Source: an uncultured Paracoccaceae bacterium | Lineage (GTDB): Bacteria; Pseudomonadota; Alphaproteobacteria; Rhodobacterales; Rhodobacteraceae | Reading direction: 5' to 3' | Length of the DNA: 64,000 nucleotides | Assembly: GCA_947487205.1 (NCBI GenBank) | Contig: CANKVU010000005.1 | Location: 1 to 64,000, forward strand | Part shown: positions 5,236-29,575 of the stretch, in pieces | Numbering within the stretch: position 1 is the first letter of the stretch | How the letters are laid out: each line of letters starts with the position of its first letter | Translations under genes and position numbers: made by a program | Notes under the pieces: model-generated | What the model saw: the letters and a program-made list of their open reading frames with translations, nothing else | What the model was told of the DNA's origin: nothing | Database searches by the model: none

Positions 5236-5237
5236 TG

Positions 5238-6045: not shown

Positions 6046-6217
6046 CCCGTATCGCGCGGATCTGCTTCTCGTCAGTCATCAGATTCGGGTCCTTCAAGGT
6101 CTGGTTGATGGGTTCGATAGGCACCGGTGGGCGCGGTCACGTTCGCCGGTGCCGCCAGCTCAGCGCAGGTCGCCGCCGGCCGCCCAGCCACGCTCAGTTT
6201 CTGCTGAGGGTGTCGCA

Positions 6218-8115: not shown

Positions 8116-8129
8116 CCCTCGGAGGCGTC

Positions 8130-11068: not shown

Positions 11069-11191
11069 TCAGGAACAGCGGGACGATGGGGAGGATGAGC
11101 GGCACTTGCGGGAGGACGGGGGTAAGGGGGAAACGGTTCAAGGTCAGAGGCTTGGACCGGATCAGGGAGGATGGGGAGGATGATTGCAGGG

Positions 11192-11249
11192 TAACGCATA
11201 CGCGCGAAGGGAAGGGGAGTGAGAGGGGTGATGCCGGCTCTATGCGTTA
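11192..11249. repeat. Inverted repeat between helicase and next gene
   Basis: TAACGCATA (11192-11200) and TATGCGTTA (11241-11249) form perfect 9-bp arms 40 bases apart. The core ATGCG(T) resembles half of the immunity-region operators. It lies in the 265-base gap before the next gene, whose remainder is purine-rich and holds no evident gene. Could be a distal repressor site or a hairpin; undecided. Confidence 0.4.
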
Positions 11250-11333
11250 GTCTGAAATCTCCTCCCTATCCTCCCTTTTGAGAATAATAACGAAGAAAAT
11301 ACAGTGAGTTAGAAGGCAGGAAAGAGCGGGAAG

Positions 11334-12245: not shown

Positions 12246-12318
12246 GAAAGTTGACAGGTCTGTGATCTCAGGCTTCCCTACGGAAGCTGATTGTTTCGAT
12301 CACGCTTGGGAGCCTCAA

Positions 12319-13149: not shown

Positions 13150-13289
13150 AAGGGAATCCACGAATTATGGCGATACCGCAGGTCTGTGGCCGTCAGATTC
13201 CTTGAAAAAGCTAGTGCTGGCCAAGGAACGCGGACTGGTGACGGGCGCGGCAATCGGCAGCGCCGTTAGTCGGGCAACGCTGCTTTCCG

Positions 13290-13356
13290 GGATCGAACTG
13301 ACCGACGGGATGCCGCCACTGTCGACCAGGCGGAAAGGGGATTGACCGGAGCACAA
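13290..13356 (+). repeat. Direct repeat, copy 2
   Basis: Second copy of the 67-base repeat. Upstream in the same frame the similarity continues more weakly as AVSRATLLSGIELTDGMPP (copy 1: AVARAAPLSWIELTDGMPP), then ends in a stop. No start or full gene accompanies it, so it is the leftover 3' end of a related gene. The rest of 13150-13449 holds no gene. Confidence 0.8.
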
Positions 13357-13449
13357 GCCTTGGGGTATTGACCTCGACCAAGCAACCGACGTGCGCCCGG
13401 GGTAGAGATACCGCCGGGCGCATCTCGTTTCTGGCTATCGGAGGCAGCC

Positions 13450-14019
13450 ATGTACCGCCTCGAATTCCTTGATCAGAACGCGGTTCGGTTTCAGGACGCT
13501 GTCGTCCGGGTTGGCGACGCAAAGACGGCCCACGGCGCCTTCCGTCGGGCCATCAACCATACCGGCGCGAAGGCAAGGACACGGACCGTCCGGGCGCTTG
13601 CGAAGCAGATGGGCTTGAAGCAGTCGGTCGTCAGGACACGGATCGAGGAGCGGAAGGCCAATTACGAGCGGCTGGAGTACGTCCTGAAAGGATCGGGCGA
13701 ACCGCTGTCGCTCAAGGAGTTCGGGGCTAAGCAGTTCGCATACGGCGTCCGCGCCAAGCCATGGGGGCGCAGCCAGAGGTTCGAGGGCGTCTTCATCATG
13801 GCGGGATCGCGCAACAGCGGTCGACCCGTCGCGGGCGGCCACGTCTTCAAGCGGACCAACGGATCGGCCTCGCTGCCGATCGAGAAGCTCTACGGGCCCA
13901 GCATCCCGCGCGAGATGGTTCAGGGCGCGAGCGCCATCGCGTTCTCCGAGGTGACCAAGGATCTCGGGACCCGCATCCAGCACGAGTTGGGGCGGCTGAC
14001 GGGTGGGGTGGTGGGGTGA
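13450..14019 (+). CDS. Prophage minor tail protein Z-like protein
   Basis: 189 residues. FRRAINHTGAKARTRTVRAL (about 31-50), the following VVRTRIEERKANYE, SLKEFGAKQFAYGVRAKPWG and FEGVFIMAG...GHVFKRT, ending YGPSIPREMVQG, follow the layout of phage minor tail Z / GpZ proteins (lambda-type tail completion). It would act at the tail-head connector end. It precedes the terminase genes, an order seen in some transposable or mosaic phages. The ATG follows GGAGG (13439-13445 region). It seems intact although the structural genes it would work with are gone. Confidence 0.65.
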   Translation: MYRLEFLDQNAVRFQDAVVRVGDAKTAHGAFRRAINHTGAKARTRTVRALAKQMGLKQSVVRTRIEERKANYERLEYVLKGSGEPLSLKEFGAKQFAYGVRAKPWGRSQRFEGVFIMAGSRNSGRPVAGGHVFKRTNGSASLPIEKLYGPSIPREMVQGASAIAFSEVTKDLGTRIQHELGRLTGGVVG

Positions 14020-14118
14020 CACCGACCCCCCCCCGAAACAGGGACCGTCTCGAAATTCCGGGTACATGCGGGGGCGCAGCAGCCCGGGGTTTTCGCCATT
14101 TTAAACAATGCGCGGAGC

Positions 14119-14139
14119 CTAAACCCCGGGTGGGTTTAG
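14119..14139. other. Perfect hairpin upstream of terminase (possible packaging or terminator site)
   Basis: CTAAACCC-cgggt-GGGTTTAG is an 8-bp perfect stem with a 5-base loop in the 196-base gap before the terminase small subunit gene. It lacks a following T-run, so a Rho-independent terminator is doubtful. A position just upstream of the terminase is where cos/pac sites lie in many phages; that role is inference. Confidence 0.4.
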
Positions 14140-14215
14140 CTTGTTGAGCCATGGTTGAGCGCAGTCGTGAAAGGCAGGAGGGACGTAGGCGCGGCACCGC
14201 GCCAGGAAGGGCGTC

Positions 14216-14851
14216 ATGAGCAGGCAGCTGAGCACGACAGAACTGGCACAAGAGCTGAACCTGTCGAAGGGTCGGATAAGCCAGCTCGTGAGAGACGGCC
14301 GCCTCGACGGGTGCTTCCAGGGCGCGGGCCGCGCCCGGCGCTTTGACCTGGTCCTGGCGGCGGAAACATTGGGGCACCGTCTCGACCCGGCCCAGATGCT
14401 GGGCAACGGCGCGAAGACCCGCCGCAGCCTCGATGAGATCGACGAGCCGTCCCCGGCCGATCCCGAAGACATGCCGCGCGACGGGGCCGGCGCGACCCTG
14501 CTGCCGGCGAAAGATCCGAGCCGCTACGAGCTGGCGCGGACGCAGGAGCTCGAGGAAAAGGCGCGGCGCGCTCGCCGCCAGAACGAGGTGGAAGAAGGCA
14601 ACTGGGTCCTCGCCAGCGAAGTGCACACGGAGACGGCGCGCCAGATCCAGATGGAGATCGCGTCGATCGAAAGCTCTGTTTTGCGGGGAGGCGCACGCCG
14701 GATTGCCGATGAGCTGGGCGTCGATTTCAAGGAGGTGCGCGCGATCTTGACGCAAGTCTGGCGCGAGTATCGGGGGCACCGCACCGAACAGAAGTCCGCA
14801 GAGGCCGAAGCGGCGCGGCTCTCCGCGCCCGAAGACGAGATGGACTTCTAG
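14216..14851 (+). CDS. Phage terminase small subunit
   Basis: 211 residues. The N-terminal MerR/HTH-like segment (TTELAQELNLSKGRISQLV then RDGRLDGCFQGAGRARRFDL) would bind packaging-site DNA. A linker and a charged coiled coil (RYELARTQELEEKARRARRQ then NEVEEGNWV) follow, then a C-terminal domain (SEVHTETARQIQMEIASIES...DELGVDFKEVRAILTQVWRE). This matches DUF1441-like terminase small subunits paired with GpA-type large subunits. It ends in TAG one base before the large subunit ATG. Intact, but its partner is truncated. Confidence 0.75.
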   Translation: MSRQLSTTELAQELNLSKGRISQLVRDGRLDGCFQGAGRARRFDLVLAAETLGHRLDPAQMLGNGAKTRRSLDEIDEPSPADPEDMPRDGAGATLLPAKDPSRYELARTQELEEKARRARRQNEVEEGNWVLASEVHTETARQIQMEIASIESSVLRGGARRIADELGVDFKEVRAILTQVWREYRGHRTEQKSAEAEAARLSAPEDEMDF

Positions 14852-14852
14852 C

Positions 14853-17800
14853 ATGGGTTTCCTGGCTCCGGCCCAGGCGGTGGTCGCGCAAGCGATCGCC
14901 CAGGCCATCGCGCCGCCGCCGCCGCCGGACATCACCCGGTGGTGCGAAGAGAACATCGTGTTCGATGCGCGCTCGCCGATGCCGGGTCCGTTCGACATCT
15001 TGCGGTTCGCGTTCCTGCGGGAGATCCACGAGGTCCTCTCTCCCGAGCATCCGTCTCGGGAGGTCACTCTCCGGGGGTCGGCGCAATGGGGGAAGACGGT
15101 CTCGGTGATCCAGCCGACGATCGACGGGCAGACGGCGACGATCACGTACACCGTCTCGGACGGGACCGACGAGGACACAGGCACGGTCGCTGTCGGCGTC
15201 AAAGCTCCTGTCGTCATCGGCCCCGCCCCGACCACCACGACCAGCACCGTCACGATGACCTCCTGGGGCGACGATTTCGGGGAGACGAGCCCTCTTGGGA
15301 CGGCGAAGCCCGTTGGTGTTCTCGCGGACGGATCGCCGTTCATCGTATCGGGCGGCTCTTCCGTAGAGATCCTGGGTTTCTCGACCCCCTCGGGCGCTGT
15401 CGCACGGACCTTCGTGGAAGGAGCGTCTGGCCCCATGCTTGGCAGCAGCAGCGGGTCGTATGTCGCGCACGGCGCCATGCTCAACCCGGGCCAAGCGGCG
15501 TCTCAGGGCAGCCTCGGGGCAATGCAGTCCGACAACGCGGGCTATTCCTCATATGAGGGTGGTTCCCAAGGCTGGGACGAGGTGATCCTGAAGTCGAACT
15601 ACGCCAACTATTCGGCCAGTAAGAACATCGACCCCGGCATCACCGGGGAACCGATCACGTTGACCGAAGGGACAGTGGTCAAGGCGATCTCTCGGCTCAC
15701 TCCGGCCGGGGGTGTCGGTTCGCCGGTCATCGACGCGTTCTTGCCGGTCACTGTGCTGACCGAGACGCCGCCGGAGGGCGCTTTCCGGCCCGGGTTCGCG
15801 AACCCGGACAAGACGGTCAAGTGGACGGTCGCCGACTTGAGGATGGACCGTCTGCCCTCGCGCAGCGCGGCGGGGATCGACGTGCCAGTTTCGAGCGAAC
15901 TCATCAAGGCGCTGTCTCTGGTTCTGACGCACCACCACACCTTCAACGTCAACTCGGGCAACATCACGCCGACCAACGGCCGGTCACACCCGGGCCTCAG
16001 CAGCTATTACGGCGAAATCGCGGAACTCATGTTCGACGCGATGCTCGGGCTGACGCTAGACGCCTGGACCGCCGACGAGAAGCTGGCGATCACCATCCGT
16101 CTCGTGCAGCAGGGCATCGACATCGCCGCGCGGGTTCAGCAGGGCGGGGTCTTCTATCCCAACGGCGGGCACTCGCACGGCCGTCTGGGCTGCCTCTCCT
16201 TCGCGGCCGAAATGTTGGACAGCGATGAGCTGCGTCAGGTCTGTCGCACCCAAATTGAGTACGGCGGATATAAGAGCGTCAATGAGGGCGCATCGGTTTT
16301 CGGCGAGCGGAACATGTTCGTTCTAGTGGATCAGGGCATGATCGACGTGTCAAAGGGCATGACCATCAGCGGCCGCTCGGTCGAGTTCTTCGATGACATG
16401 ATCGACTGGCCCGAATGGGTGGGGGAACTCGGGAACTACACCCCCCGCAACCTGCTAGGGAATACCACCGATCAGAAGAAGGGCTACCTGCACATCTGTA
16501 TGCAGGCGCTGACATCGCAGATCCTCGTCGCCCGGCAGATCCCCGGCATGACCCTTCTGCAAGGTGATCCGGCGCTCCTCGATTTCGCTGACCGCTACGC
16601 TCAGTGGAAAGCAGGCGACGACGCCATGCTCAGGCTGACCGACACGATGGTCAATGTCGGCACCACGGGCAACCACCCGAAACCGTGGGTCATCGACACC
16701 TGGGTCGCCTATCGCGGCACGGATCACCTTTGGACGCGCGACACGGCCGGGGATCTCCGCGTCGTGGCGAACGAGGTCGATCCCGTGACCGGCGCGGCGC
16801 ACGTCCTATTCAACAGGGACGTGCTCGACCCCTCCCTTCCCAACGTCACCGCACAAGGAAACATGCTCATCGTGACCACAGAATTCACCATTGCTGCAGG
16901 AGCTATTCGGGACGGGTTCGGCAATACGAACCAGGAACCCATCCTCGTTACGCTGTCACCGCCAAGCGGTGGCGGGGGCACCGTCACGCCTCCGCCGGTG
17001 ACCACCGGGCGGATCGGCTTTGGCATCTGGAGCCAGAGCCAGACGGCGTACATGCTCGACCTGAGCGGCAAAACCGCCATCCCGCCGCCGACGCTCGTCA
17101 ACGACGTGACGATGACGGTCTACGGGGACGAGCACGGCACCGGAGGCACGCAGGGCAATCCGGAGATACGGGTTGACGACGTGACCCAAGCCAATCTGGA
17201 CAGCGACCGCTTGAACCCCGCCATGGGCGCGATGGGAGAGTTCTTCGCGTTCCGTCACCCCGGCCGGCACATCGATATCGTGGATTTCGCCACGCCCGGG
17301 ACCGGGTTTCAGAACCAGATGGACGATGCCGTGACCGACATTCTGTGGTCGGATAAGCAGGCCATGCTGGACAGGGTGCGGGCCGACGGGCGCGATGTTC
17401 ACGATAACATCTTCAACTGGATGGGCGACGACGCCGCCGCCGCCAAGAGCTACTACGAGACGATGTTCCCGCTTTTCACCGGCCAGCGATTCAACGGGGA
17501 GATCGTCAACATCGGCGACGTGAACCCCGATTCCTATCTCGGCCGTTCGGTCGATCACATCATGTATGACCTGTCCGGAGCGGGACGCGGGGTGTTCGAC
17601 AATGATGTGCCGATCAGCTTTCTCGGCTGGCCGACCTTCAACGATCGTGAAACCTCGGATGCCGAGGACATCAACTTCACGACCAAGGCAGACGGCTCTT
17701 ATGCCGGGCGCGACGTGCAGCTCGACCGCCCCGCGCGGGATCAACATTACCGGCTGCTGAACGACCCGTCGTGGGAGCCGATCAGGGGCTGGCACGGCCC

Positions 17801-18644
17801 CTCCTGCCACATCGCGAACATGGGCTACGGCACCCATCCGGTGACAGATGATCCGGATGGCCAGATCCTCTATATGTGGCCTTGGGCGATCACCATCGGC
17901 CGTCGCCTCGGCGACACGAAGTGTCGGAACATGGTCATCAACGAGGCGATCCGGGACGCCGATGGCACGTCGATCCGCCTGCGCGTCACGGACAGCGAGG
18001 GAAATGCCCTCGACCCATTGGACGATACGCTGACGACCCTCCGCATCCAGCGTGGCCTTCCGGCTCCCGCCCCGCTTCCGCCGCATTGGCAGGAAGCCAT
18101 GGGCGTGGAGATCGTGCGCTCCAGTGGTTCCCGTCGTCCCGTCTACCGTCTGGATGCCACCGGTTATCCGGACGAGTTCAAGGGTACGGTCACCATCGAA
18201 GGCGATGAGACTGTCGTGGTCCCCCTGATCCCCTTCGCGGACGACGAATACTGCGAATATCTGCGCGGCGACGCCAGCACGATGCTGAAAGAGCCGCGCG
18301 ACATCGACGCGAAGGTCTACCAGGACGTGCCGCTCGTGCATGTCGCCTCGCTCTATCAGGACGACGCGACCTATCCGTGCCCGGGCATCCCGGTTGAGCC
18401 GCAGCCGCCTGTGGAAGTCCTCGACGGGACGCGGACCGGCGGCGGCAAAATGACGTATCCGATCCCTGGACCCGGAACCGGCGGGGGCACCGGCGGCGGC
18501 GGCACTCCGGCGCCGGCCGGCTCCGCCTCCTGGAGCATCAGCGGCAACGATGACGGCACGTTCACCGTCGATAGCGTCGGCGATCTTCTCACCTCTCCCA
18601 TCGTCACCGGAAACGATGACGGCACGTTCACCTACGAGGAGTAA
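14853..18644 (+). CDS. Chimera: terminase large subunit N-terminus fused in frame to a giant tail protein
   Basis: 1263 codons. Residues 1-90 are the start of a GpA-family terminase: DITRWCEENIVFDARSPMPG, then REVTLRGSAQWGKTVSVIQP with the Walker-A-like GSAQWGKT (75-82). At about residue 90 (15,120) this stops and an Ig/cadherin-like strand DGQTATITYTVSDGTDEDTG takes over. The rest is a tail-spike-like protein: an alpha/alpha-toroid-like region (about 360-470, SHPGLSSYYGEIAELMFDAM and NGGHSHGRLGCLSFAAEML), a Ser/Gly/Pro linker (about 705-720), an SGNH-esterase-like region (about 725-950, GFGIWSQSQTAYML ... DVHDNIFNWMGDD), and a Gly-rich tail with GNDDGTFT twice. The join is best explained by a large deletion of the structural genes. 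Confidence 0.75.
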   Translation: MGFLAPAQAVVAQAIAQAIAPPPPPDITRWCEENIVFDARSPMPGPFDILRFAFLREIHEVLSPEHPSREVTLRGSAQWGKTVSVIQPTIDGQTATITYTVSDGTDEDTGTVAVGVKAPVVIGPAPTTTTSTVTMTSWGDDFGETSPLGTAKPVGVLADGSPFIVSGGSSVEILGFSTPSGAVARTFVEGASGPMLGSSSGSYVAHGAMLNPGQAASQGSLGAMQSDNAGYSSYEGGSQGWDEVILKSNYANYSASKNIDPGITGEPITLTEGTVVKAISRLTPAGGVGSPVIDAFLPVTVLTETPPEGAFRPGFANPDKTVKWTVADLRMDRLPSRSAAGIDVPVSSELIKALSLVLTHHHTFNVNSGNITPTNGRSHPGLSSYYGEIAELMFDAMLGLTLDAWTADEKLAITIRLVQQGIDIAARVQQGGVFYPNGGHSHGRLGCLSFAAEMLDSDELRQVCRTQIEYGGYKSVNEGASVFGERNMFVLVDQGMIDVSKGMTISGRSVEFFDDMIDWPEWVGELGNYTPRNLLGNTTDQKKGYLHICMQALTSQILVARQIPGMTLLQGDPALLDFADRYAQWKAGDDAMLRLTDTMVNVGTTGNHPKPWVIDTWVAYRGTDHLWTRDTAGDLRVVANEVDPVTGAAHVLFNRDVLDPSLPNVTAQGNMLIVTTEFTIAAGAIRDGFGNTNQEPILVTLSPPSGGGGTVTPPPVTTGRIGFGIWSQSQTAYMLDLSGKTAIPPPTLVNDVTMTVYGDEHGTGGTQGNPEIRVDDVTQANLDSDRLNPAMGAMGEFFAFRHPGRHIDIVDFATPGTGFQNQMDDAVTDILWSDKQAMLDRVRADGRDVHDNIFNWMGDDAAAAKSYYETMFPLFTGQRFNGEIVNIGDVNPDSYLGRSVDHIMYDLSGAGRGVFDNDVPISFLGWPTFNDRETSDAEDINFTTKADGSYAGRDVQLDRPARDQHYRLLNDPSWEPIRGWHGPSCHIANMGYGTHPVTDDPDGQILYMWPWAITIGRRLGDTKCRNMVINEAIRDADGTSIRLRVTDSEGNALDPLDDTLTTLRIQRGLPAPAPLPPHWQEAMGVEIVRSSGSRRPVYRLDATGYPDEFKGTVTIEGDETVVVPLIPFADDEYCEYLRGDASTMLKEPRDIDAKVYQDVPLVHVASLYQDDATYPCPGIPVEPQPPVEVLDGTRTGGGKMTYPIPGPGTGGGTGGGGTPAPAGSASWSISGNDDGTFTVDSVGDLLTSPIVTGNDDGTFTYEE

Positions 18645-18649
18645 TACCC

Positions 18650-19111
18650 ATGGGCACTCTCATCTTTCTCCCCGCCGGCGCCACCGATCTGAGCCGCGCC
18701 ATACTCGAAACCGACCTGGCGGACCTGGATAGCCGAGCCATCCCCCCGGGCAATTACATCCCCTTCGCCGCGCTTCCCGACATGACGGTGACGGATGCGG
18801 CGGCCCCGGCGCCGTTCTTCACGACCACCGCGTCCGCGCCGAAATACACCGATCCGTCCCCGGTGCCCGACAACACCACCGTCATCGAGTACGTGGCGCG
18901 CCTCCGCATTCCAACCGGCGCCGCGCTCGGGACCAACCGGCCCCTCTTCTCGCAGGCGTCCCTTGGCTACGACGTGCGCCTGATCGACGGGCAGATGTAT
19001 TTCCAAGTCCAGTACCTCAAGGACAGCACCAGCACGACGCTTCTTTCCGGCAGCGACGTGGGTGGGGCGCCTCGGGACGAATGGATCGACATGTCGATCG
19101 CGGCGGACTAG
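18650..19111 (+). pseudogene. Phage tail-associated protein, N-terminal part before in-frame amber
   Basis: 153 residues starting MGTLIFLPAGATDLSRAILE, 5 bases after the giant tail gene. The later part (YVARLRIPTGAALGTN ... DVRLIDGQMYFQVQYL ... EWIDMSIAAD) reads as a beta-sandwich, concanavalin-like structural domain. It ends at a TAG (19109-19111) in mid-domain; the same frame resumes at once with VAGEVRYSVGDD. The whole would be about 234 residues. Probably a tail fibre or receptor-binding accessory protein disabled by a nonsense mutation. Confidence 0.6.
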
Positions 19112-19354
19112 GTGGCGGGCGAAGTGCGCTACTCGGTCGGGGATGATACCGGCGTCAAACCTTTCAACCCGGGCAGCGGAAAATTCATGTCCACCCGCGA
19201 GATCATCCTGCTTGGCAGCGCGGCCTATAACGCGCCGGCCGGGCTCGAGATCGAGTACGTGGAGGTTTACTTCACGACGAACGGCACGCGATCCCTGCGG
19301 AAGCGGATCGACGCGAGCAACTGGGAAACGGACCCTTGGCGGTCTGACGTATGA
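19112..19354 (+). pseudogene. C-terminal continuation of the amber-interrupted tail protein
   Basis: 80 codons continuing the frame of 18650-19111 directly after its TAG: VAGEVRYSVGDDTGVKPFNP ... LEIEYVEVYFTTNGT ... LRKRIDASNWETDPWR. These are the expected remaining strands of a beta-sandwich (WIDMSIAAD-x-VAGEVRYSVG is a continuous strand pair). The GTG right after the TAG has no ribosome site. The last phage-like sequence before the VPLPA array. Confidence 0.55.
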
Positions 19355-19357
19355 TGG

Positions 19358-19385
19358 GAGGGCGGGGGACAGTTCCCGCCCCCTC
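19358..19385. terminator. Bidirectional hairpin between convergent genes
   Basis: GAGGG-CGGG...CCCG-cc-CCCTC around a short loop forms a strong GC stem between the tail gene stop (19354) and the first VPLPA gene stop (19390). There is no strong T-run on either side. Its convergent position suggests it ends transcripts from both directions. Confidence 0.5.
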
Positions 19386-19389
19386 AACG

Positions 19390-19989
19390 TTACCCGCGGC
19401 GGCGATGCCAAGCCAGCGCGCTCAAGCCCGCCAATAGGAGCGGAGCGGTGGCGGGCAGTGGGACCGGGGACGGGGTCACGTCGGTCAGGCTGAACTCGCC
19501 GGGGCCTTCGTAGAAAGTATTATTGAAGTAGTATTCGAACCGGTAGCTCCCTTCGGTGGCGAACATTGTAGAGTTGTCCTGATCCGACGAGACAAAGGAC
19601 GCATCAGTCAGACTACCATTCGGGGAGATAGACGCGTTAAGGGCTACCGAACTGGATAAAACAGTAAGCGCTGACAGCGGGGCGTTCTCCAAGGAATATC
19701 CGTTTATCTCAAATCGCTCTATTGTGACGGTGTCGATGGACGGAGGCGCATCTTCGTCGTAGTTGTACCAAGAGTGTCCGGTATCAAGTGCATAGGCACC
19801 GTCCGGCGCTTCGATTAAGAATGAAAAGTTGAGTGAGGTTCTGGGGCTGACCCCATCCGGACCGACGGGTCTCGGCTCCAATGTTCCCTGATAATCCGCG
19901 AGCCCCTTATAGCTAAGCCGGTACGTCGCCGCATCCGCGACCACCGGGACCGCGAGCAGGGCCGCCCCCGCCAGCATGGCAATACGCAT
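19390..19989 (-). CDS. VPLPA-CTERM secreted protein, subtype A (array copy 1)
   Basis: 199 residues. Signal peptide MRIAMLAGAALLAVPVVADA (1-20). The mature part opens ATYRLSYKGLADYQG and ends FYEGPGEFSLTDVTPS, both shared with array copies 3 and 5 (subtype A). The tail is PVPLPATAPLLLAGLSALAW followed by HRRRG: motif, hydrophobic helix, basic end, as in VPLPA-CTERM exosortase substrates. It would be exported by Sec, held by its tail and processed at the inner membrane. It is last in the leftward array, 44 bases after copy 2. Base composition is visibly more AT-rich than the chromosome. Confidence 0.8.
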   Translation of the reverse strand: MRIAMLAGAALLAVPVVADAATYRLSYKGLADYQGTLEPRPVGPDGVSPRTSLNFSFLIEAPDGAYALDTGHSWYNYDEDAPPSIDTVTIERFEINGYSLENAPLSALTVLSSSVALNASISPNGSLTDASFVSSDQDNSTMFATEGSYRFEYYFNNTFYEGPGEFSLTDVTPSPVPLPATAPLLLAGLSALAWHRRRG

Positions 19990-20033
19990 AAATTATCCCT
20001 TTTGGTGAAGGTTCTTTTATTGCCGGCGTTCTC

Positions 20034-20585
20034 TCACGCCCGGCGGCGATACCAGCTCAGGATTCCCAAGCCCGCCAGTAGGAGCGGCGCTGTGGCAGGA
20101 AGAGGCACAGGCGCTATATCAATCGGCCCGGCCGTCCACTCGCCTTCGGATTTGTAGACGAGATCCATAGTCTCAAAGTACTGAACCTTATCGAAGAATA
20201 CATCGATGTTTGGCACGCCTTCGCTTACGCTTGCGAATGCGTTGATCAGATTCCCAGAGTCATCCGTTCGGAACGAAGCCCGCCCATCGAAAATGAACGA
20301 GAACAGTGGGTTCAGTCGGTCAATATCACCGGATACAAATGATCCGCCACTTTCCTCTAAGACCGTCCCGCGCAGGTAACGTCCGGTATAATTCAGATCG
20401 ATAATGGAAGGAATATCGAGAACGATGCGGGCCGTGATCGGTCTGGTTCGATCCGGGTCTGCAAAGCTGTACTCATCCCCGGTGAACGTCGGCGCTTCGC
20501 TTTTGAAGCTGAACTCGTACAACGCCGCGTCCGCGGCCATCGGGGCGGCGAGCATGGCGGTCCCAACCAACATGGCAATACGCAT
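20034..20585 (-). CDS. VPLPA-CTERM secreted protein, subtype B (array copy 2)
   Basis: 183 residues. Signal peptide MRIAMLVGTAMLAAPMAADA. The mature domain differs from copy 1 and pairs with copy 4: ALYEFSFKSEAPTFTGDEY, ITARIVLDIPSIIDLNYTGR, LEESGGSFVSGDIDRLNPLF. Tail PVPLPATAPLLLAGLGILSW then YRRRA. The first codons (ATGCGTATTGCCATG) are identical to those of copies 1 and 3 although the bodies differ. A ribosome site GAGGA lies 10 bases before the ATG. No enzymatic motif seen; probably a structural or adhesive surface protein. Confidence 0.8.
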   Translation of the reverse strand: MRIAMLVGTAMLAAPMAADAALYEFSFKSEAPTFTGDEYSFADPDRTRPITARIVLDIPSIIDLNYTGRYLRGTVLEESGGSFVSGDIDRLNPLFSFIFDGRASFRTDDSGNLINAFASVSEGVPNIDVFFDKVQYFETMDLVYKSEGEWTAGPIDIAPVPLPATAPLLLAGLGILSWYRRRA

Positions 20586-20624
20586 GGTGACATGTCCTCA
20601 AGATATAGGTTTAAATAAAGTAAC

Positions 20625-21263
20625 TTATTGCGACTTTAAGCGGCGGCTTGTCCAACCAAGTGCCATCAAGCCAAAGGCTAGCATTGGTGCGGTCGCCGGG
20701 ATCGGAATAGGAGAGATATCGAGGTTCTCTACCTGAAACTGGCCAGGGCCTGACAGTGTGTAGTTATTTAAAGTGTCATCAAGAAAAAATCTGCCATTTC
20801 TTGCGTAGTACGTCGGCGTGGTGAATTGACCGAATCTGAACTCTGGCGAGGTTACTTCTCCATTACTTTCAATATCGAACTCTAAATCTGCAAAAAAGAA
20901 GTTCTCCGAGAGATTTGGCAAGGGGATATCTCCGGCGACTACAGTAAAGCCTTCGAAACGATCCAACCTGAAGCGTTCGACTTCAACGTTGAACGCCGAG
21001 CCAATTATATTCTCAGGCAATCTCGGAGGATTAGCGTACTCGCTGAATCCCGCATAAAAAGATCTGGGAAGCATTCCCGGTGCATCGACTAGGAATGATG
21101 CCTCAAGTGTCACCACCCCGTCGAAAGGTTCCTCGACTGGCCCGCTATCGTGTAGGTAGTTCTGGAACGTTGCCGACCCTTCATAGGAAAGTCGGTAAGC
21201 TGCGGCATCCGCAACCATCGGAGCGGCCAGTGCAACTGTTCCTGCCAACATGGCAATACGCAT
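20625..21263 (-). CDS. VPLPA-CTERM-like secreted protein, subtype A (array copy 3)
   Basis: 212 residues from ATG 21263 (a TTG directly before is an unlikely start). Signal peptide MRIAMLAGTVALAAPMVADA. Subtype A features: AAYRLSYEGSATFQNYLHD near the start and TLSGPGQFQVENLDISP near the end. The sorting tail is divergent (PIPIPATAPMLAFGLMALGW then TSRRLKSQ), with Ile for Val and Leu in the motif. It still has the motif-helix-basic layout. The divergence could weaken recognition by the exosortase. Spacing to copy 2 is 39 bases. Confidence 0.78.
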   Translation of the reverse strand: MRIAMLAGTVALAAPMVADAAAYRLSYEGSATFQNYLHDSGPVEEPFDGVVTLEASFLVDAPGMLPRSFYAGFSEYANPPRLPENIIGSAFNVEVERFRLDRFEGFTVVAGDIPLPNLSENFFFADLEFDIESNGEVTSPEFRFGQFTTPTYYARNGRFFLDDTLNNYTLSGPGQFQVENLDISPIPIPATAPMLAFGLMALGWTSRRLKSQ

Positions 21264-21306
21264 CAATTCAGCCTCTTGTAATGCTAATGTTTCGTCTCAG
21301 CCCGTT

Positions 21307-21891
21307 CTACGGGCGTCGGCGATACCAACCGATCGCACCGAGGCCGACCAACAGAAGGGGTGCTGTAGCGGGAAGTGGGACAGGAGCAACCTCTACAGAA
21401 GACAGCGTCCAAGACCCTTCTGCTTCGAAAAAATCTGATCCGGAATCGCCCCAGCGAACGTAGTCATACCCGATCGAATAGTCTGGGAAGTCAAATGCAA
21501 TACTAGCGCCGGCACCTGTCAGATCACCAGCTTCGTTAGTGGAAAATCCAAAGTCGCCGAACAAGGCATATGGATCAAGAACGCTGTATCCATCAATATT
21601 GCCCGAAATCAGTTCTCCCCCGCTTTCACCATGAAGATCGCTGTACGCGTAGCGGGTCGAATAATTAGCATTCTTGATTGATGGTACTTCCACCAAAAAA
21701 CTGGCTGTAACCGGCTGACTTACGCCGTCGAAATCCTCGAAGGTTGTTCTTCCAAGGCCGTAGGTTTCGTAATCGTCCTGAGTGCCGATGAAAGTAGTCG
21801 GGCCACTCATAAAATTAAGCTCATACTTGGCGGCATTTGCGACAGCGGGAGCTGTGAGCATAGCAACTCCCAATAGCGTGACGGTACGCAT
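21307..21891 (-). CDS. VPLPA-CTERM secreted protein, subtype B (array copy 4)
   Basis: 194 residues. Signal peptide MRTVTLLGVAMLTAPAVANA. Subtype B: AKYELNFMSGPTTFIGTQDDY, VTASFLVEVPSIKNANYSTR, HGESGGELISGNIDGYSVLD, aligned with copy 2 along most of the length. Tail PVPLPATAPLLLVGLGAIGW then YRRRP. A ribosome site GAAAGG precedes the ATG by about 8 bases. Rich in aromatic residues and Asp/Asn, poor in Lys and with no Cys in the mature part, as expected of exported beta-sandwich proteins. Confidence 0.8.
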   Translation of the reverse strand: MRTVTLLGVAMLTAPAVANAAKYELNFMSGPTTFIGTQDDYETYGLGRTTFEDFDGVSQPVTASFLVEVPSIKNANYSTRYAYSDLHGESGGELISGNIDGYSVLDPYALFGDFGFSTNEAGDLTGAGASIAFDFPDYSIGYDYVRWGDSGSDFFEAEGSWTLSSVEVAPVPLPATAPLLLVGLGAIGWYRRRP

Positions 21892-21924
21892 GTAAAAAAC
21901 CTTTCGATAAGAGTCGATTCTTAA

Positions 21925-22518
21925 TTACTGGGGGTAGATCGCGCGACGGCGATACCGGCCTATCGCACTTAGACCTACCAACAAGAGCGGGGCACTAGCT
22001 GGCAGTGGTATTGGGGCGATTTCGGGCTTATCCAAGTTCGTCAGTGTATATCCACCCGGACCTTCAAAAACAGTATTGTCGAAGTATCCTACCACAGTGA
22101 GTGTTTCTTCGTCAGCGAAGAATACACTAGTATCTTGATCATCGGCCCTAAACGATGCGCTCTCCAATTCACCGTTGGAGGTCAATTCAAACGTAAGATT
22201 CGCATCGGAGAAGTTTCCTCCGAAACGCTGGATAAAAGCTTGTGTCGCTGTACTACTGGCGTTGCCGCGCGAAATTGCTCCGTAATCGTAAAATCCCACT
22301 TCCTGCGTGGTAGTATCGCCCTCTGGAATATAAAAATCTAACGCAAAAGAAAGATTTACTGTCCTCGAACCTACTTCTGGAAAGCGCTCTGCCGGATCGT
22401 CGGGATTTAAGTAGCTGTCGAACGTAGCTGCTCCTTCGTAGGCCAGCCGATACGTTGCGGCTTCGGCAACCAGCGGCAGCCCTAGCGCGATAATCCCGGC
22501 TAACATTGCGGTGCGCAT
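21925..22518 (-). CDS. VPLPA-CTERM secreted protein, subtype A (array copy 5, promoter-proximal)
   Basis: 197 residues from ATG 22518 with GGGAG upstream. Signal peptide MRTAMLAGIIALGLPLVAEA. Subtype A: ATYRLAYEGAATFDSYLNP and, near the end, FDNTVFEGPGGYTLTNLDKP. Tail APIPLPASAPLLLVGLSAIG then RYRRRAIYPQ, five residues longer than in the other copies. It is first in the leftward array, so the promoter should lie in 22,519-22,600 near the inverted repeat. Confidence 0.8.
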   Translation of the reverse strand: MRTAMLAGIIALGLPLVAEAATYRLAYEGAATFDSYLNPDDPAERFPEVGSRTVNLSFALDFYIPEGDTTTQEVGFYDYGAISRGNASSTATQAFIQRFGGNFSDANLTFELTSNGELESASFRADDQDTSVFFADEETLTVVGYFDNTVFEGPGGYTLTNLDKPEIAPIPLPASAPLLLVGLSAIGRYRRRAIYPQ

Positions 22519-22542
22519 CAAGAATCTCCCTAATCAAACGAT

Positions 22543-22573
22543 TGACACGCTAACCGTGTTAACAGTCGTGTCA
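22543..22573. promoter_or_regulatory. Inverted repeat upstream of the VPLPA array
   Basis: TGACACG (22543-22549) and CGTGTCA (22567-22573) are perfect arms 17 bases apart, centred 40 bases upstream of array copy 5. Arm spacing of about two helical turns fits a dimeric regulator. On the minus strand TGACACG...TTAACACGG could overlap a promoter. Regulator unknown. Confidence 0.45.
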
Positions 22574-22661
22574 TGAGGGGTGTAGGGAGAACACGTGGAG
22601 AACGAAGAAAGAACATGGTCGTTTCCTTCGCGGCATCTTGGCGATATCAGGAGCTATGGCC

Positions 22662-22802
22662 ATGCACATGTTCCTATTCTGCTCCTGCGGTCACGAGGGC
22701 CTGGTGCGGCCCGACCTCTCCGGGCAGCGGGAGCGGATCCTGAAGAGAGCTCGGTGCTCGCGATGCGGCATCCTGGGGGCCATGGATTTGCGGATCATGT
22801 GA
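22662..22802 (+). CDS. Zinc-ribbon microprotein
   Basis: 46 residues from ATG 22662 (ATG 22656 is too close to the AGGAG site at 22649-22653). MHMFLFCSCGHEGLVRPDLS continues to RARCSRCGILGAMDLRIM. The two knuckles, C-S-C and C-S-R-C about 27 residues apart, form a small zinc ribbon, with an aromatic/basic middle. Proteins like this are found in phages and mobile elements. Not in any longer frame; recognised by translating the short ORF directly. Confidence 0.5.
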   Translation: MHMFLFCSCGHEGLVRPDLSGQRERILKRARCSRCGILGAMDLRIM

Positions 22803-22880
22803 TTCTCGCAGTCCGACGAGGATCTCGCCGAGCGGTATGGCCCAGTGGCAAGGAGGTCGAGCGACCGGGGAGGATGACCC

Positions 22881-23460
22881 TCAGCCTGCCTTGATCTCTA
22901 GCAGGGCCCAATCCGGCAGCGGGCGCTGCAACTCGGCCGCCTCGCTCCACGGCGCGCGCAACCAGGCCTCCCGCTCTTCCGCCGTGGTCAGGATCACGGG
23001 CATCGCCTTCGGATGAACCGCCGCGACCTCGGCGTTGGGTTCGGTGGTCAGGAAACCGTAGAAGTCGGCCGTGACCTCGCCCTCTTTCAGTTTCCGCACG
23101 CTGGTCCAACGGGCCCAGATACCGGCGAAGAACGCGAGGGGCTGGTCGTCTGCCAGCGCGAACCAGACCGGGGCCTTCCCGCGCCCTGTCGTTGTTCCCG
23201 GTTCCGAGAACGCTGTGAGGGGGACAAGGCAGCGATGTTCGGGACCCAGCCATCGGCGCCAATGAGGGCTCTTCGTGTTCCGCACGTTCGTAACGCCGCG
23301 GTCGGTCTTCTTTCCCTTGAGGGCGAAGTCGGGTGTGGACATGCCCCATCGCGCCAGTACGAGCTCGGCCCCTTCATCCGACGGTCGAACGATCGGCGCC
23401 TCATAGTCAGGGTATATCCCGGCAAGGGGAGCGAGGTTGCCCGCGCGATCGGTGAGGCCG
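22881..23460 (-). pseudogene. SRAP (HMCES/YedK-like) peptidase gene lacking its catalytic N-terminus
   Basis: SRAP proteins crosslink abasic sites in single-stranded DNA through Cys2. From GLTDRAGNLAPLAGIYPDYE the frame follows the family: APIVRPSDEGAELVLARWGM, TNVRNTKSPHWRRWL (active-site Asn region), CLVPLTAFSEP (Glu), AVHPKAMPVILTT (His). The first ~30 residues, which must begin Met-Cys, are replaced: upstream in frame the sequence is Arg/Pro-rich and unrelated, and no other frame supplies MCN/MCG. The 5' end was therefore lost, probably when the array or prophage was inserted next to it. Not expected to be active. Confidence 0.7.
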
Positions 23461-23818
23461 GAACGGTGCCCCACGGGGCCGGGCCGTGCCAATCTCCGGC
23501 GCAGGGCGCCGTGGCATAGGCGGCGGGCAGTGGCTCGCGGGGGCCTAACTCGCCGTAGAAGCCGGCCGCTGTGGCTGGGAGAGGTAGGAAGACGAGGATG
23601 ATCGGGTTTACAAACCGTCTCGTAAGGCATTGATTACGTGTGAGGCGCCCTTGGCGCCGTTTACGGCGTAACCTGTTGCGGCAGCTGGATTGTCGCTGTC
23701 CTCCAGGGATCGCCAGCACGTCCGGGCCCCCGGTCGCGTGTCCCCCTCGCGCGGCTCCCCTGTCGGCGCGCCCCCGCGGGTGCTAGGCTACGGGCCGAGG
23801 CCCGAGAAAGGACATCCG
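23461..23818. other. Scar region between mobile DNA and chromosome
   Basis: About 360 bases without a convincing gene. It covers the place where the SRAP N-terminus should be. Minus-strand translation contains FLPLPATAAGF near 23,560-23,590, reminiscent of a VPLPA motif, but without a following helix and Arg cluster. An AGAAAGGA ribosome site at its right end serves the gene at 23819. No tRNA or attachment site recognised. Confidence 0.4.
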
Positions 23819-24130
23819 ATGTATCTGACCATGAACCGGTTCGAGGTGACCGAGGGCCGCGAGAAGGAGTTCGAGGAGATCTGGCTGAGCCGCGATTCCC
23901 GCCTGAAGGAAGTGGAGGGCTTCGTGGCGTTCCATCTCCTGCGGGGCGAGACGGCGGACGGCTACACGCTCTACGCCTCCCACACGACGTGGCGCGACCG
24001 CGCCGCGTTCGAGGAATGGACGCGGTCCGAGGCGTTCCGCAAGGCGCATTCCGGCGTGCGCCCGCAGCAGGATCTCTATCGCGGGCCGCCGGTCCTGGAG
24101 ATCTTCGAGAGCGTGCAATCGCTGGACTAG
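23819..24130 (+). CDS. Antibiotic biosynthesis monooxygenase (ABM)/HmoA-like protein
   Basis: 103 residues from ATG 23819 with AAAGGA upstream. MYLTMNRFEVTEGREKEFEE, IWLSRDSRL, VEGFVAFHLLRGE and TTWRDRAAFEEWTRSEAFRK form the ferredoxin-like ABM fold of HmoA/IsdG-type heme-degrading monooxygenases. Asn7 and the Trp/Phe-Glu-Trp stretch are the family's marks. Heme oxygenation is plausible but not proven; small ABM proteins have varied substrates. Cytoplasmic. First clearly chromosomal gene after the scar. Confidence 0.75.
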   Translation: MYLTMNRFEVTEGREKEFEEIWLSRDSRLKEVEGFVAFHLLRGETADGYTLYASHTTWRDRAAFEEWTRSEAFRKAHSGVRPQQDLYRGPPVLEIFESVQSLD

Positions 24131-24195
24131 CCCCCGCGTCCCGTTTCCGCGCCGTCGCCCATTGGCGCCTTGCATGACCTGCACGCTTCGGACGA

Positions 24196-25455
24196 ATGTC
24201 CGTCATGGATGACCCGCGCTTCGCCTTTGACTCCTACCACCTCCTCCTGGCCATGCTTGGGGCGAGCCTTCTGGTGTCCTACTGGCTGCCGCGCCTCTTC
24301 CTGCGGCGTCCGCCCGCGGTCACCGCCCTGCTGATGACCTGCGGCATGCTCAGTTCCTGGGCGTTCCCGGGGCTCGTCGATGGCATCGATCCGACCCGCA
24401 ATCCCGCCATCTGGGAGGTCGCGGCAGAGATCGTGGTGATCGTCGTCCTCTTCGCCACCGGCATGCGGATCGACGATCTCGGCAATTTGCGCCTGTGGCT
24501 GCCCACGATCGGCCTTCTCGCCGTCACGCTGCCGCTCACCGTGGCCGCGATCGCGGTTCTGGGCTGGGCGCTCGCCGGGATGACGATCGGCGGGGCGATC
24601 CTGATGGGCGCCGTTCTGGCCCCCACCGATCCGGTCCTGGCCGGGGATCTGCAGATCGGTGCCCCGATGGAGGGGCGGGAGCATCCCGTCCGCTTCGCGC
24701 TGACGACCGAGGCGGGCCTCAACGACGGGCTGGCCTTCCCCTTCGTCTACCTGGCGCTCCATGTCGCGGCCGAGGGGGCCGCGCCCGGCCTCTGGCTCGG
24801 CGAATGGCTGAGCTGGGACATCCTCTATCGCATCTCGGTCGGGATCGTCCTCGGCGTCGGCATCGGCTGGCTCCTGGGGCGCATCCTCTTCGCGGTCCCG
24901 AGCTGGAACACGCTGGCCGCCTCCGGGCCCGGCGTCCTGGCCCTGTCGGGCGTGTTCCTGACCTACGGCCTCGTGGAACTGGCCGAGGGCTACGGCTTCA
25001 TCGCGGCCTTCGTCGCCGGTCTCGTCTGCCGCCGCGCGGAAAGCGAGCATCACTTCCACCAGCGCCTCCATCGGTTCGCCGTCTCGATCGAGCACGCGAT
25101 CACCGCGATCCTGCTCGTCCTGCTCGGCGGGGTCATGCCGCTGCTCTGGCCGAACCTGACCCTCGCGCATGCCATCATCAGCGGCGCGCTGATCGTCGTG
25201 ATCCGGCCGCTGGCCGGGTTCCTGGGCCTCGTCGGCACGCCGCTCGAGGGGCGCGGCCGTGCCGTGATCGCAACCTACGGGGTGCGGGGCATCGGCTCGC
25301 TCTACTACCTCGGCTATGCCTCGACCCATGTCGAGTTCATCGACGAAGGCGCCCTGTGGGCGGTGGTCGCCTACACGATCTTCGCCTCGACGGTGATCCA
25401 CGGGCTGACCGCGACCCGCATGGTCGAGGCGCTCGACCGGGCGGACGATCCCTGA
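24196..25455 (+). CDS. CPA1-type Na+/H+ antiporter
   Basis: 419 residues with about 12 membrane spans. Exchanges sodium (or potassium) for protons across the inner membrane. Conserved core motifs are LAPTDPVLAGDLQIG (about 145-160) and TEAGLNDGLAFPFVYLAL (about 172-190), which carry the acidic ion-binding residues, and YGVRGIGSLYYLGYA near the C-terminus. It has no cytosolic RCK/TrkA-C extension. NhaP-like; the exact ion is undetermined. Followed by a hairpin shared with the convergent dgoD. Confidence 0.85.
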   Translation: MSVMDDPRFAFDSYHLLLAMLGASLLVSYWLPRLFLRRPPAVTALLMTCGMLSSWAFPGLVDGIDPTRNPAIWEVAAEIVVIVVLFATGMRIDDLGNLRLWLPTIGLLAVTLPLTVAAIAVLGWALAGMTIGGAILMGAVLAPTDPVLAGDLQIGAPMEGREHPVRFALTTEAGLNDGLAFPFVYLALHVAAEGAAPGLWLGEWLSWDILYRISVGIVLGVGIGWLLGRILFAVPSWNTLAASGPGVLALSGVFLTYGLVELAEGYGFIAAFVAGLVCRRAESEHHFHQRLHRFAVSIEHAITAILLVLLGGVMPLLWPNLTLAHAIISGALIVVIRPLAGFLGLVGTPLEGRGRAVIATYGVRGIGSLYYLGYASTHVEFIDEGALWAVVAYTIFASTVIHGLTATRMVEALDRADDP

Positions 25456-25489
25456 CGCCCGGCCTCCTTCAGGTCCCGGCGGCCGGGCG
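25456..25489. terminator. Hairpin between convergent antiporter and dgoD genes
   Basis: CGCCCGGCC (25456-25464) and GGCCGGGCG (25481-25489) form perfect 9-bp arms with a 16-base loop, starting right after the antiporter stop and ending 6 bases before the dgoD stop. No T-run. Likely a bidirectional transcript end. Confidence 0.6.
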
Positions 25490-25494
25490 CGCCG

Positions 25495-26643
25495 TCACCA
25501 TTCCGCGACCGAGCCGTCCGCATGCCGCCAGATCGGATTGCGCCAGCGATGGCCCGTCTCGGCGGCGCGGGCGACGGCCGCCTCGTCGATCTCCACGCCC
25601 AGCCCCGGCCCGCGCGGGATTTCCACCTGTCCGCCCGCATAGGCGAAGACGGACGGATCGGCGAGATAGTCCAGCATGTCGCTGCCCCGGTTGTAATGGA
25701 TGCCGAGGCTCTGTTCCTGGATGAAGGCGTTGTGGCTCACCGCGTCCACCTGCAGGCTCGCCGCCAGCGCGATGGGGCCGAGCGGGCAATGGGGCGCCAG
25801 CGCCACGTCGTAGGCCTCCGCCATGGTGGCGATCTTGCGGCATTCGGTGATCCCGCCCGCATGGCTCAGGTCGGGCTGCACGATGTCCACGCAGCGCGCC
25901 TCGAAGACGCGCTTGAAATCCCACCGCGAATAGAGCCGCTCGCCCAACGCGATGGGCGTGGAGATCCCCCGTACGACCTCCGCCAGCGAGTCGAGGTGCT
26001 CCGACAGGATCGGCTCCTCCACGAACATCAGGCGGAACGGCTCCAGCTCCCTCAGCAGCACCTTGGCCATGGGGCGGTGGACCCGTCCGTGGAAGTCGAC
26101 CCCGATCCCCACCTGCGGGCCCACGGCCTCGCGGACCGTGGCGACGTTCTGGACGACGCGCTCCACACTGGCATGGCCGTCGACGATCTGCATCTCCTCG
26201 GGGCCGTTCATCTTCACAGCGCGGAACCCGCGCGCGACGGCGTCCCGCGCCGCGGCCGCCAGGTCCGAGGGCCGGTCGCCCCCGATCCAGGAATAGACCG
26301 CGATGCGCTCGCGGCACCGGCCGCCCAGAAGCTCGTGCACCGGCTGGCCCAGCGCCCGGCCCTTGATGTCCCACAATGCCTGGTCGATGCCGGCGAGCGC
26401 GCTCATCAGTACCGGGCCGCCGCGGTAGAAGCCGCCGCGATAGAGCACCTGCCAGTGGTCCTCGATGGGAAACGGGTCGCGCCCGATCAGGTAGTCGGCC
26501 AGTTCGTGGACGCAGGCCTCCACCGTGTGCGCCCGCCCCTCGACCACCGGCTCGCCCCAGCCCGACACGCCCTCGTCGGTCTCGATCTTCAAAAACAGCC
26601 AGCGCGGCGGCACGATGAACGTCTTGAGCGCGGTGATCTTCAT
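25495..26643 (-). CDS. dgoD: D-galactonate dehydratase
   Basis: 382 residues. Dehydrates D-galactonate to 2-keto-3-deoxy-D-galactonate (De Ley-Doudoroff route), Mg-dependent, cytoplasmic. It follows E. coli DgoD almost end to end: FLKIETDEGVSGWGEPVVEG, GGFYRGGPVLMSALAGIDQA, YSWIGGDRPSD, VDFHGRVHRPMAKVLLRELE, FVEEPI, GERLYSRWDFKRV, QPDLSHAGGITECRKIA, LAPHCPLGPIALAASLQ, and a C-terminus WRNPIWRHADGSVAEW. Metal ligands are the Asp of DFHG and the Glu of VEEP and LGER. No kinase, aldolase or transporter of the pathway is adjacent. Followed upstream by manC on the same strand with 48 bases between. Confidence 0.93.
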   Translation of the reverse strand: MKITALKTFIVPPRWLFLKIETDEGVSGWGEPVVEGRAHTVEACVHELADYLIGRDPFPIEDHWQVLYRGGFYRGGPVLMSALAGIDQALWDIKGRALGQPVHELLGGRCRERIAVYSWIGGDRPSDLAAAARDAVARGFRAVKMNGPEEMQIVDGHASVERVVQNVATVREAVGPQVGIGVDFHGRVHRPMAKVLLRELEPFRLMFVEEPILSEHLDSLAEVVRGISTPIALGERLYSRWDFKRVFEARCVDIVQPDLSHAGGITECRKIATMAEAYDVALAPHCPLGPIALAASLQVDAVSHNAFIQEQSLGIHYNRGSDMLDYLADPSVFAYAGGQVEIPRGPGLGVEIDEAAVARAAETGHRWRNPIWRHADGSVAEW

Positions 26644-26691
26644 GTCGGCTGTCCTCCCCTCGGTCTGCCCGGCCCGACCCGCACCGCGGCC

Positions 26692-28113
26692 TCAATCCGT
26701 GGGATCGCGGGCATAGATGTCCTCCAGCCGTTCGATGTCGTCCTCGCCCACATAGGCGCCGGTCTGCACCTCGATCAGGATCATCGGTACCTTGCCCGGG
26801 TTCTCCAGCCGGTGCGTCGCGCCGAGCGGGACATAGAGCGATTCGTTCTCGGTCAGGAGCCGCGTCTCCGCCTCGATCGTCACCCGCGCGGTGCCCGAGA
26901 CGACGGTCCAGTGCTCGGCGCGGTGGATATGGCGCTGCAGCGACAGCGACGCCCCCGGATGGACGACGATGCGCTTCACCCGGAACCGGTCGCCCTCGGC
27001 CAGGGTCTCGAAATGGCCCCAGGGACGGTGGTCGTGGCGGAACGATTCCGCCTGGTAGGCGCCCTTCGCGCGCAGCCTCTCCACCGCCAGCCGCACATCG
27101 GCACCCCGGTCGCGATGGGCCACCAGGACGGCGTCGTCCATCGCCACGACCACCAGCTGGTCGAGGCCGATCCCCACCACCTCAAGGCCGGCAACCTCCG
27201 AGCGCAGGAGCGTGTCGCGGCAGTCGATCGCCGTCGCGCCGCGGCCTGCCGCCACGCCGGCCGCGTCCCGCTCCATCTCCCTGTAGACCGCGTTCCAGCC
27301 GCCCAGGTCGACCCAATGGGCCGAATAGGGCGCCACGCAGAGATCTCGCGCCTTCTCCATCACCGCGTAATCGATCGAGGCGGCCGGCACGGCGTCCCAT
27401 GCCGCCGGGTCGAGCCGGACGAAGCCCAGGTCCGGCCGCGCCGCCTCCACCGCCCGTCCGACCGGGCCGACCAGGTCCGGCGCGTGATCGGCGAAGGCCG
27501 ACAGGATCCTGTCCGCCCGGAAGAGGAAGATCCCCGCGTTCCAGAAATATCCGCCGGCCTCGAACATGCGCTCCGCCTCGGCGCGGTCGGGCTTCTCCAC
27601 GAAGCGGCGCAGGGCGCTCAGCCCGTCCTCCAGCGCATCGCCCGGCTCCAGCCAGCCATAGCCCGTCTCGGCGCAGCTCGGCGTGATGCCGAAGGTGACG
27701 ATCCGGCCCGCCGCGGCGGCCGGACGGGCGCGGTGGACCAGCTCGACGAAGGCGTGGGGGTCGGCGATGGCGTGGTCGGACGGCGCGATCAGCATCACCG
27801 CCTCGGGATCGGTCCGCGCCACGGTCAGCGCCGCGGCCAGGATGGCGGGCGCGGTGTTGCGCGGCGCCGGCTCCACCAGGACGGCGCCGGGATCGACGCC
27901 GAGTTCCAGAAGGTGCTCGGCCACGACGAAGCGGAACGCGGCCGCCGTGACGACCGTCGGCGCGGCGAAGCCCGGCCCCGACACCATCCGCGCGCAGGCG
28001 GCAAAGGAGCTGGACGGGCCGACGATGCGCGCGAACTGCTTCGGATAGGCCTTTCGCGACAGGGGCCACAGCCTGGTCCCGGAGCCGCCGCAGAGAATGA
28101 CCGGGTGTATCAT
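26692..28113 (-). CDS. manC: Mannose-1-phosphate guanylyltransferase / mannose-6-phosphate isomerase
   Basis: 473 residues, type II bifunctional enzyme. The N-terminal nucleotidyltransferase starts VILCGGSGTRLWPLSRKAYP (5-24) with KQF; FVEKPDRAEAERM and GYFWNAGIFLFRAD complete it. The C-terminal cupin isomerase (about 350-470) has RPWGHFETL, RFRVKRIVVHPGASLSLQ, HIHRAEHWTVVSG and ENESLYVPLGATHRLENPGK. It makes GDP-mannose for polysaccharides. Divergent from manB, with 73 bases between, so both may share control. Confidence 0.92.
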   Translation of the reverse strand: MIHPVILCGGSGTRLWPLSRKAYPKQFARIVGPSSSFAACARMVSGPGFAAPTVVTAAAFRFVVAEHLLELGVDPGAVLVEPAPRNTAPAILAAALTVARTDPEAVMLIAPSDHAIADPHAFVELVHRARPAAAAGRIVTFGITPSCAETGYGWLEPGDALEDGLSALRRFVEKPDRAEAERMFEAGGYFWNAGIFLFRADRILSAFADHAPDLVGPVGRAVEAARPDLGFVRLDPAAWDAVPAASIDYAVMEKARDLCVAPYSAHWVDLGGWNAVYREMERDAAGVAAGRGATAIDCRDTLLRSEVAGLEVVGIGLDQLVVVAMDDAVLVAHRDRGADVRLAVERLRAKGAYQAESFRHDHRPWGHFETLAEGDRFRVKRIVVHPGASLSLQRHIHRAEHWTVVSGTARVTIEAETRLLTENESLYVPLGATHRLENPGKVPMILIEVQTGAYVGEDDIERLEDIYARDPTD

Positions 28114-28186
28114 CGGGGCGCCTTTGCCAATCCTATGAAACTTCTAGTTGATAGGGCGGACGCCCTCAATGCAACGGGGAGGAACG

Positions 28187-29554: not shown

Positions 29555-29575
29555 CCGTCGCGGCGAGCCGTGGCG

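Follow-up and report, generated by a model that had tools for sequence, protein, structure and literature searches.

An alternating array of VPLPA-CTERM-like genes and an island-borne pair of the same two families in a Paracoccaceae genus

Contig CANKVU010000005.1 of an uncultured Paracoccaceae bacterium carries, within the 64,000 nucleotides (nt) analysed here (the window), a row of five genes for VPLPA-CTERM-like proteins whose mature domains alternate between two families, A and B. A lone A-then-B pair of the same families lies on a genomic island in a second genome of the genus, G259. On balance, we favour the reading that A and B form a two-gene surface module of substrates for the exosortase XrtD, which is mobile in G259, probably also here, and has been expanded in the window.

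Two alternating protein families

The array (19390-22518, minus strand) consists of five intact, co-directional open reading frames (ORFs) with ATG starts, named g1 to g5 in the order of transcription, whose mature domains follow the order A-B-A-B-A. The first gene, g1 (21925-22518), matches the A profile and, at 26.3 bits in a genome scan, the VPLPA-CTERM model TIGR03370; g2 (21307-21891) matches the B profile; g3 (20625-21263) matches the A profile and ends in a deviating tail, PIPIPATAP; g4 (20034-20585) again matches the B profile; and g5 (19390-19989), an A gene scoring above the TIGR03370 cut-off, closes the array with no B after it. For g1 and g3, the ORF list also gives an earlier TTG start. 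The intergenic gaps measure 33, 43, 39 and 44 nt, and in each protein a signal-peptide-like start is followed by a mature domain, 135-164 residues long as trimmed for the tree, and a VPLPA-type tail.

Alternation goes beyond chance, because mature domains compared with shuffled sequences score high within a family—34-37% identity and z 10-13 for A with A, 34% and z 17 for B with B—and low between families (24-30%, z 1.6-3.5). In a nine-row tree of mature domains, the split between A and B received support of 100/99. A profile-profile comparison of the two families gave a probability of only 3.7%; as such a match is not credible, the split means two groups rather than common descent, and shared ancestry of A and B is not claimed. 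The ORFs, z-scores and tree bear out the preliminary description of this DNA, which had proposed a five-gene VPLPA-CTERM-like array alternating between two families, and the domain phylogeny it had suggested places A and B in separate groups. The search of the mature domains against family models, likewise suggested there, matched no listed family: above cut-off, NCBIfam returned only TIGR03370 and Pfam only the PEP-CTERM motif, in g4 and g2. Nor did the A and B profiles match any solved structure by sequence.

A single A-B pair on a tRNA-integrated island

In G259, an A gene (rA; L039:8078-8701) precedes a co-directional B gene (rB; L039:8769-9368), the order being that of the array. Identity to the window's mature domains amounts to 28-36% for A and 35-50% for B, the closest array copy to rB being g2 (50%). 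The pair sits inside an insert of ~5.2 kilobases (kb) that has a 15-base-pair (bp) direct repeat (L039:6954-6968 and 12153-12167), a transfer RNA (tRNA) gene, tRNA-Gly (L039:12154-12227), and an integrase gene (L039:10696-11976; Phage_integrase, 30.5 bits, cut-off 27.1), along with a third VPLPA-type gene (L039:7022-7519), its tail recognised by eye. The adjoining chromosomal DNA is 82% identical to the window's genome over 6.9 kb, and there both flanks of the insert are contiguous with one copy of the repeat, i.e. an empty site. Such a 15-mer repeat arose in 0 of 300 trials with random sequence of like composition. Given tRNA, integrase, repeat, empty site and random trials, the A-B pair in G259 is cargo of a tRNA-integrated island.

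The island has no recognised phage structural gene among the ORFs examined. A defence role for its genes was considered and dropped, PADLOC giving no match for the three ORFs tried. Also on the island are an AT-rich gene without a recognised family (L039:9915-10706) and a fragment (L039:9459-9607) that recurs in G000:C11 at 86% and resembles the start of a transposase.

Shared ends of A and B

Although their centres differ, rA and rB share 85% of their DNA in the signal peptide and 91% in the tail. Where the two genes encode the same residue, the third codon position matches in 30/42 cases at the ends and in 9/32 in the middle (p 0.0002; p values here are uncorrected for 21 gene pairs tested, and this one would survive correction). 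The two highest end values of all 21 pairs belong to adjacent A-B pairs, namely rA-rB and g4-g5. The G259 pair thus demonstrates exchange of ends between A and B; within the array, such exchange is suggested. Recent homogenisation of all array ends was also considered and not retained, since its support is limited to the G259 pair and, weakly, g4-g5.

Sorting signals and the cognate exosortase

All five array proteins have a VPLPA-type tail at the extreme C-terminus, as judged from the alignment, and an N-terminal signal peptide, as judged by eye. Described earlier as near-identical, the signal peptides proved rather alike only, with 71-81% of residues shared in the three pairs among g3, g4 and g5 and 52-67% in five computed pairs involving g1 or g2. 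The tails ascribed to all five genes hold up by position, but their scores are marginal: in a protein scan with TIGR03370 only g5 exceeded the cut-off, with g4, g2 and g1 slightly under it and g3 not among the matches, and in the genome scan four of the five did, g3 (14.2 bits) falling below in both. Across the window's genome, TIGR03370 marks 35 places at an expectation value (E) ≤10, of which 19 lie above the cut-off, four of them in the array.

A matching exosortase, which the preliminary description had proposed looking for, was found: the one exosortase detected in the window's genome is XrtD (TIGR04152, specific for VPLPA-CTERM), scoring 694.4 bits (cut-off 400). Eight adjoining ORFs that were scanned include, all below threshold, a PrsT-like TPR protein (201.5 bits, cut-off 312.2), a PEP-CTERM-ATPase-like protein (265.5 bits, cut-off 324.5) and, directly 3′ of XrtD, a rhombosortase-like rhomboid gene (L087:8616-9341 in G000:C15; 45 bits, cut-off 84).

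The array would then be an expanded copy of an A-then-B module whose products are two distinct small secreted proteins, both substrates of the host's XrtD. Both would be exported via their signal peptides and anchored in the inner membrane through the VPLPA helix, until XrtD cuts the tails and the proteins are delivered to the cell surface or the polysaccharide matrix; these steps follow the general model of such systems and, in part, Haft et al. (2006; PMC1569441). As adjacency and order are kept, A and B would act together. The window copy would also have arrived on a mobile element, and the array would have grown in tandem by recombination between the like ends of neighbouring genes.

A small divergent gene upstream

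Between g1 and a small divergent ORF, the intergenic region (22519-22655, read on the minus strand) contains GGGAGATTC, which resembles a ribosome site, and a TTCTCCCTA box; the same two elements lie upstream of rA. The divergent ORF itself (22656-22802, plus strand; 48 amino acids) carries CxCGHEG and CxxCG motifs with four cysteines, has no Pfam match and possesses a relative of 63 amino acids at the same place in G259, the two beginning 138 and 148 bp, respectively, from the A start. They are 59% identical over 44 residues, with codon-position identities of 59/77/48%. Because the two loci are otherwise unrelated, A-B and this ORF seem to be transferred together. On a Roseivivax plasmid that also bears ParA and integrase genes, there is a weaker relative (41%), and the 12.1 kb read there contain no VPLPA-type motif; for this reason, the ORF may belong to the carrier element rather than act as a partner of A and B.

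A hairpin masking the ribosome site upstream of g1 was considered as well. Complementary boxes recur in G259, but the idea was dropped: the fold scores are modest (z -2.25 and -0.89), and the complementary repeat does not exceed chance, random stretches having complements of at least 7 bases in 731/5000 and at least 8 in 224/5000.

Base composition and distribution

The array genes have a GC content of 49.9-58.3% in a window of 69.1%, and rA and rB have 57.9% and 59.8%; the low GC of the array supports a foreign origin. Among 24 other VPLPA-type genes of the window's genome (last 600 nt), only L027 is equally AT-rich (50%), L026 coming next (61%) and the rest ranging from 64 to 77%, so low GC is a mark of these loci rather than of VPLPA genes generally. 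L027 lies between an integrase gene and tRNA-Ser, together with a 14-bp repeat matching the 3′ end of this tRNA; such a repeat was reproduced in 1/300 random trials at any position and in 0/300 when anchored at the 3′ end. A putative tRNA-Ser island in G000:C1 (L081:2295-9714) combines an integrase with an AT-rich VPLPA gene at 6950-7852, and the tail DNA of this gene is 82% identical to the tail DNA of rA.

Within the genus, the A profile found two of 14 genomes, the window's (three matches) and G259 (one match), and the B profile at E ≤10 found three, G250 only at E 0.046. XrtD occurs in six of the 14, both carriers of A and B included; their two XrtDs are 89.6% identical, whereas the window's XrtD shares 50-51% identity with the five others. 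In the family, the first A and B profiles each matched one of 248 genomes, the window's own. Wider profiles matched four of 394 genomes for B at E ≤0.05, of which only the window's and G341 (8.5e-8) fell below 1e-3, and two for A, the second being G198 (E 0.017, with internal stops). With about one genome for each genus, these family samples missed G259, and other patchily distributed carriers may escape them as well. Of two contig scans, the first gave no match and the second one locus, CANMTR010000001.1 from an uncultured Rhodobacteraceae isolate, which matches the G259 contig. A lone, distant relative of B resides in G000:C22 (L040:6388-6981) at a normal GC of 68.7%.

VPLPA tails as such occur in 37/120 family genomes at E ≤0.001. 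Inspected by eye, the matches listed include close same-strand VPLPA neighbours in at least four other genomes (G092, G080, G079 and G063), one a plain duplication and three with unrelated mature domains, none alternating; one G079 gene is truncated at a contig end. All of these matches score above the array's own tails, meaning that comparable arrays would escape and that no frequency is claimed. In G048, from another genus, two adjoining B-like VPLPA genes with almost identical tails were seen (L050, ~6290-7635).

The prophage remnant beside the array

The array had been placed at a prophage edge; it does adjoin phage genes, but what remains is only a prophage remnant (7947-19354, plus strand), recognised through PHROGs and Pfam by a primase, a neck protein, a small terminase and a large terminase whose N-terminus is joined to other sequence. 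The latter is an ORF of 1263 amino acids (14853-18644, plus strand), in which 87 residues of large terminase precede unrelated sequence, as in a deletion scar or fusion. Next to it, two successive ORFs in one frame, separated by a stop codon and without family match (18650-19354, plus strand), probably represent a broken phage gene and are assigned to the prophage by position. Amid the prophage genes lies L026 (12262-13149, plus strand), a VPLPA-type gene of 59.8% GC whose tail, PIPLPASG, scores 18.6 bits, below the cut-off. Elsewhere in the window, C-5 cytosine methylase homology is divided between two adjoining ORFs (941-2461, minus strand), and a DUF4145 protein (5238-5801, minus strand) weakly matches PD-T7-4 in PADLOC (25.8 bits). 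Rfam gave no match in 18000-24000.

Weighing the origins of the array

Several observations weigh against a mobile module expanded in the window. The A-B pair has only two carrier genomes, and neither A nor B turned up in phage or plasmid records (both queried with g2 and g5 as single proteins) or in viral contigs. Around the window array no tRNA was found; no match to the G259 integrase was better than E 0.26, with Pfam run on selected ORFs; and 22521-24200 shares no exact 15-30-base repeat on the same strand with 1-19390. As these three marks were not found, the mobility of the window copy is something we infer; the contig starts inside the prophage, so an end may be missing. Genes of 22600-30000 match five contigs of the G259 draft (~250 contigs), none containing a junction that would mark an empty site for the array. 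As to expansion, the third-position agreement of g4-g5, the best array pair, is 22/32 at the ends and 17/33 in the middle (p 0.12), the remaining 19 of the 21 gene pairs have p 0.09 or more, and the highest tail DNA identity in the array, 0.75, is no more than the top value reached in 276 pairs of other tails from the same genome (0.75). The duplicated A-B unit invoked in the preliminary description gains from the same-order pair in a sister species, but the particular history of pair duplication does not, internal branches of the A clade being poorly supported (60/38 and 76/84). Finally, the pairing of A with B has exceptions, namely g5 and the lone B in G000:C22.

Some of this would suit an old, vertically inherited chromosomal array beside which a phage integrated by chance, with the island location in G259 later and unrelated: neither attachment site nor integrase was found at the window array, and the B tree, in which rB nests among the window copies (82/92 and 75/81), allows that B duplication may predate the species split. 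Yet vertical inheritance sits poorly with the low GC, with A being present in so few genomes of the genus, with a pair found at unrelated places in two genomes next to the same divergent ORF, and with the contiguity of the G259-pair flanks in a genome that lacks the pair there; we consider it improbable. The array's position, and a further VPLPA-type gene inside the prophage (12262-13149), could point to prophage cargo for lysogenic conversion, with proteins that alter the surface of the lysogen, e.g. by excluding other phages. Against this stand the remnant state of the phage, the searches of phage records and viral contigs, and an island in G259 devoid of recognised phage structural genes in the ORFs examined, which together make lysogenic conversion quite improbable.

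A more serious contender is that A and B serve independently as matrix proteins and were duplicated together without any partnership. The unpaired g5 and the solitary distant B agree with it, as do unrelated VPLPA genes lying side by side elsewhere (L051, L052 and L054); in both carriers, however, A and B are neighbours in the same order despite mature identities of 28-50% between the species, and we give the absence of partnership somewhat less than an even chance. A mobile A-B module accommodates this conserved arrangement and the G259 island, and it remains the explanation we lean towards.

Relation to known systems

With the established VPLPA-CTERM/XrtD system (TIGR03370, TIGR04152), the array shares the signal peptide, the C-terminal VPLPA-type tail and an XrtD in the genome; it differs in its mature domains without family, its row of five genes of two alternating kinds and the sub-threshold tail of g3. 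According to Haft et al. (2006), PEP-CTERM genes mostly form single-gene operons behind large intergenic regions, and their sets are fast-evolving, lineage-specific and subject to frequent duplication and loss. The PEP-CTERM/EpsH system described there is thus similar in its fast-evolving, duplicating secreted proteins with a sorting tail, whereas against the single-gene pattern, common if not strict, a five-gene row with gaps of 33-44 nt stands out. PepA-type PEP-CTERM proteins (NF033554), one of which is required for flocculation according to PMC9850573, offer a possible model for the array's role, but array matches to this family are sub-threshold and mostly tail-driven. The G259 insert resembles other tRNA-integrated genomic islands in its tRNA 3′ end, direct repeat and integrase and departs from them in carrying exosortase substrates; the window copy is without such marks. 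No alternating array or island-borne VPLPA pair was described in the titles and abstract beginnings searched, a search largely outside subscription journals and preprints.

Implications

Beyond the preliminary description, the present analysis adds an A-B pair on an island, an upstream ORF kept at both loci, the low GC and the shared ends. The array and the island-borne pair suggest that A-B protein pairs spread and are multiplied as preformed units. A broader and rather doubtful extension is that XrtD bacteria trade surface-protein modules on integrative elements, with end recombination multiplying and reassorting the centres; a module would then consist of unrelated central domains in near-common ends, which, if true, would amount to exosortase-based cassette shuffling of surface proteins in Gram-negative bacteria.

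For the question of what exosortase substrates do, a conserved two-gene unit offers a single pair that can be tested, for which G259 provides the natural single-pair version and the window the expanded one. Tying exosortase-sorted proteins to integrative elements would, moreover, indicate a route by which the make-up of a bacterial surface may be changed in one step.

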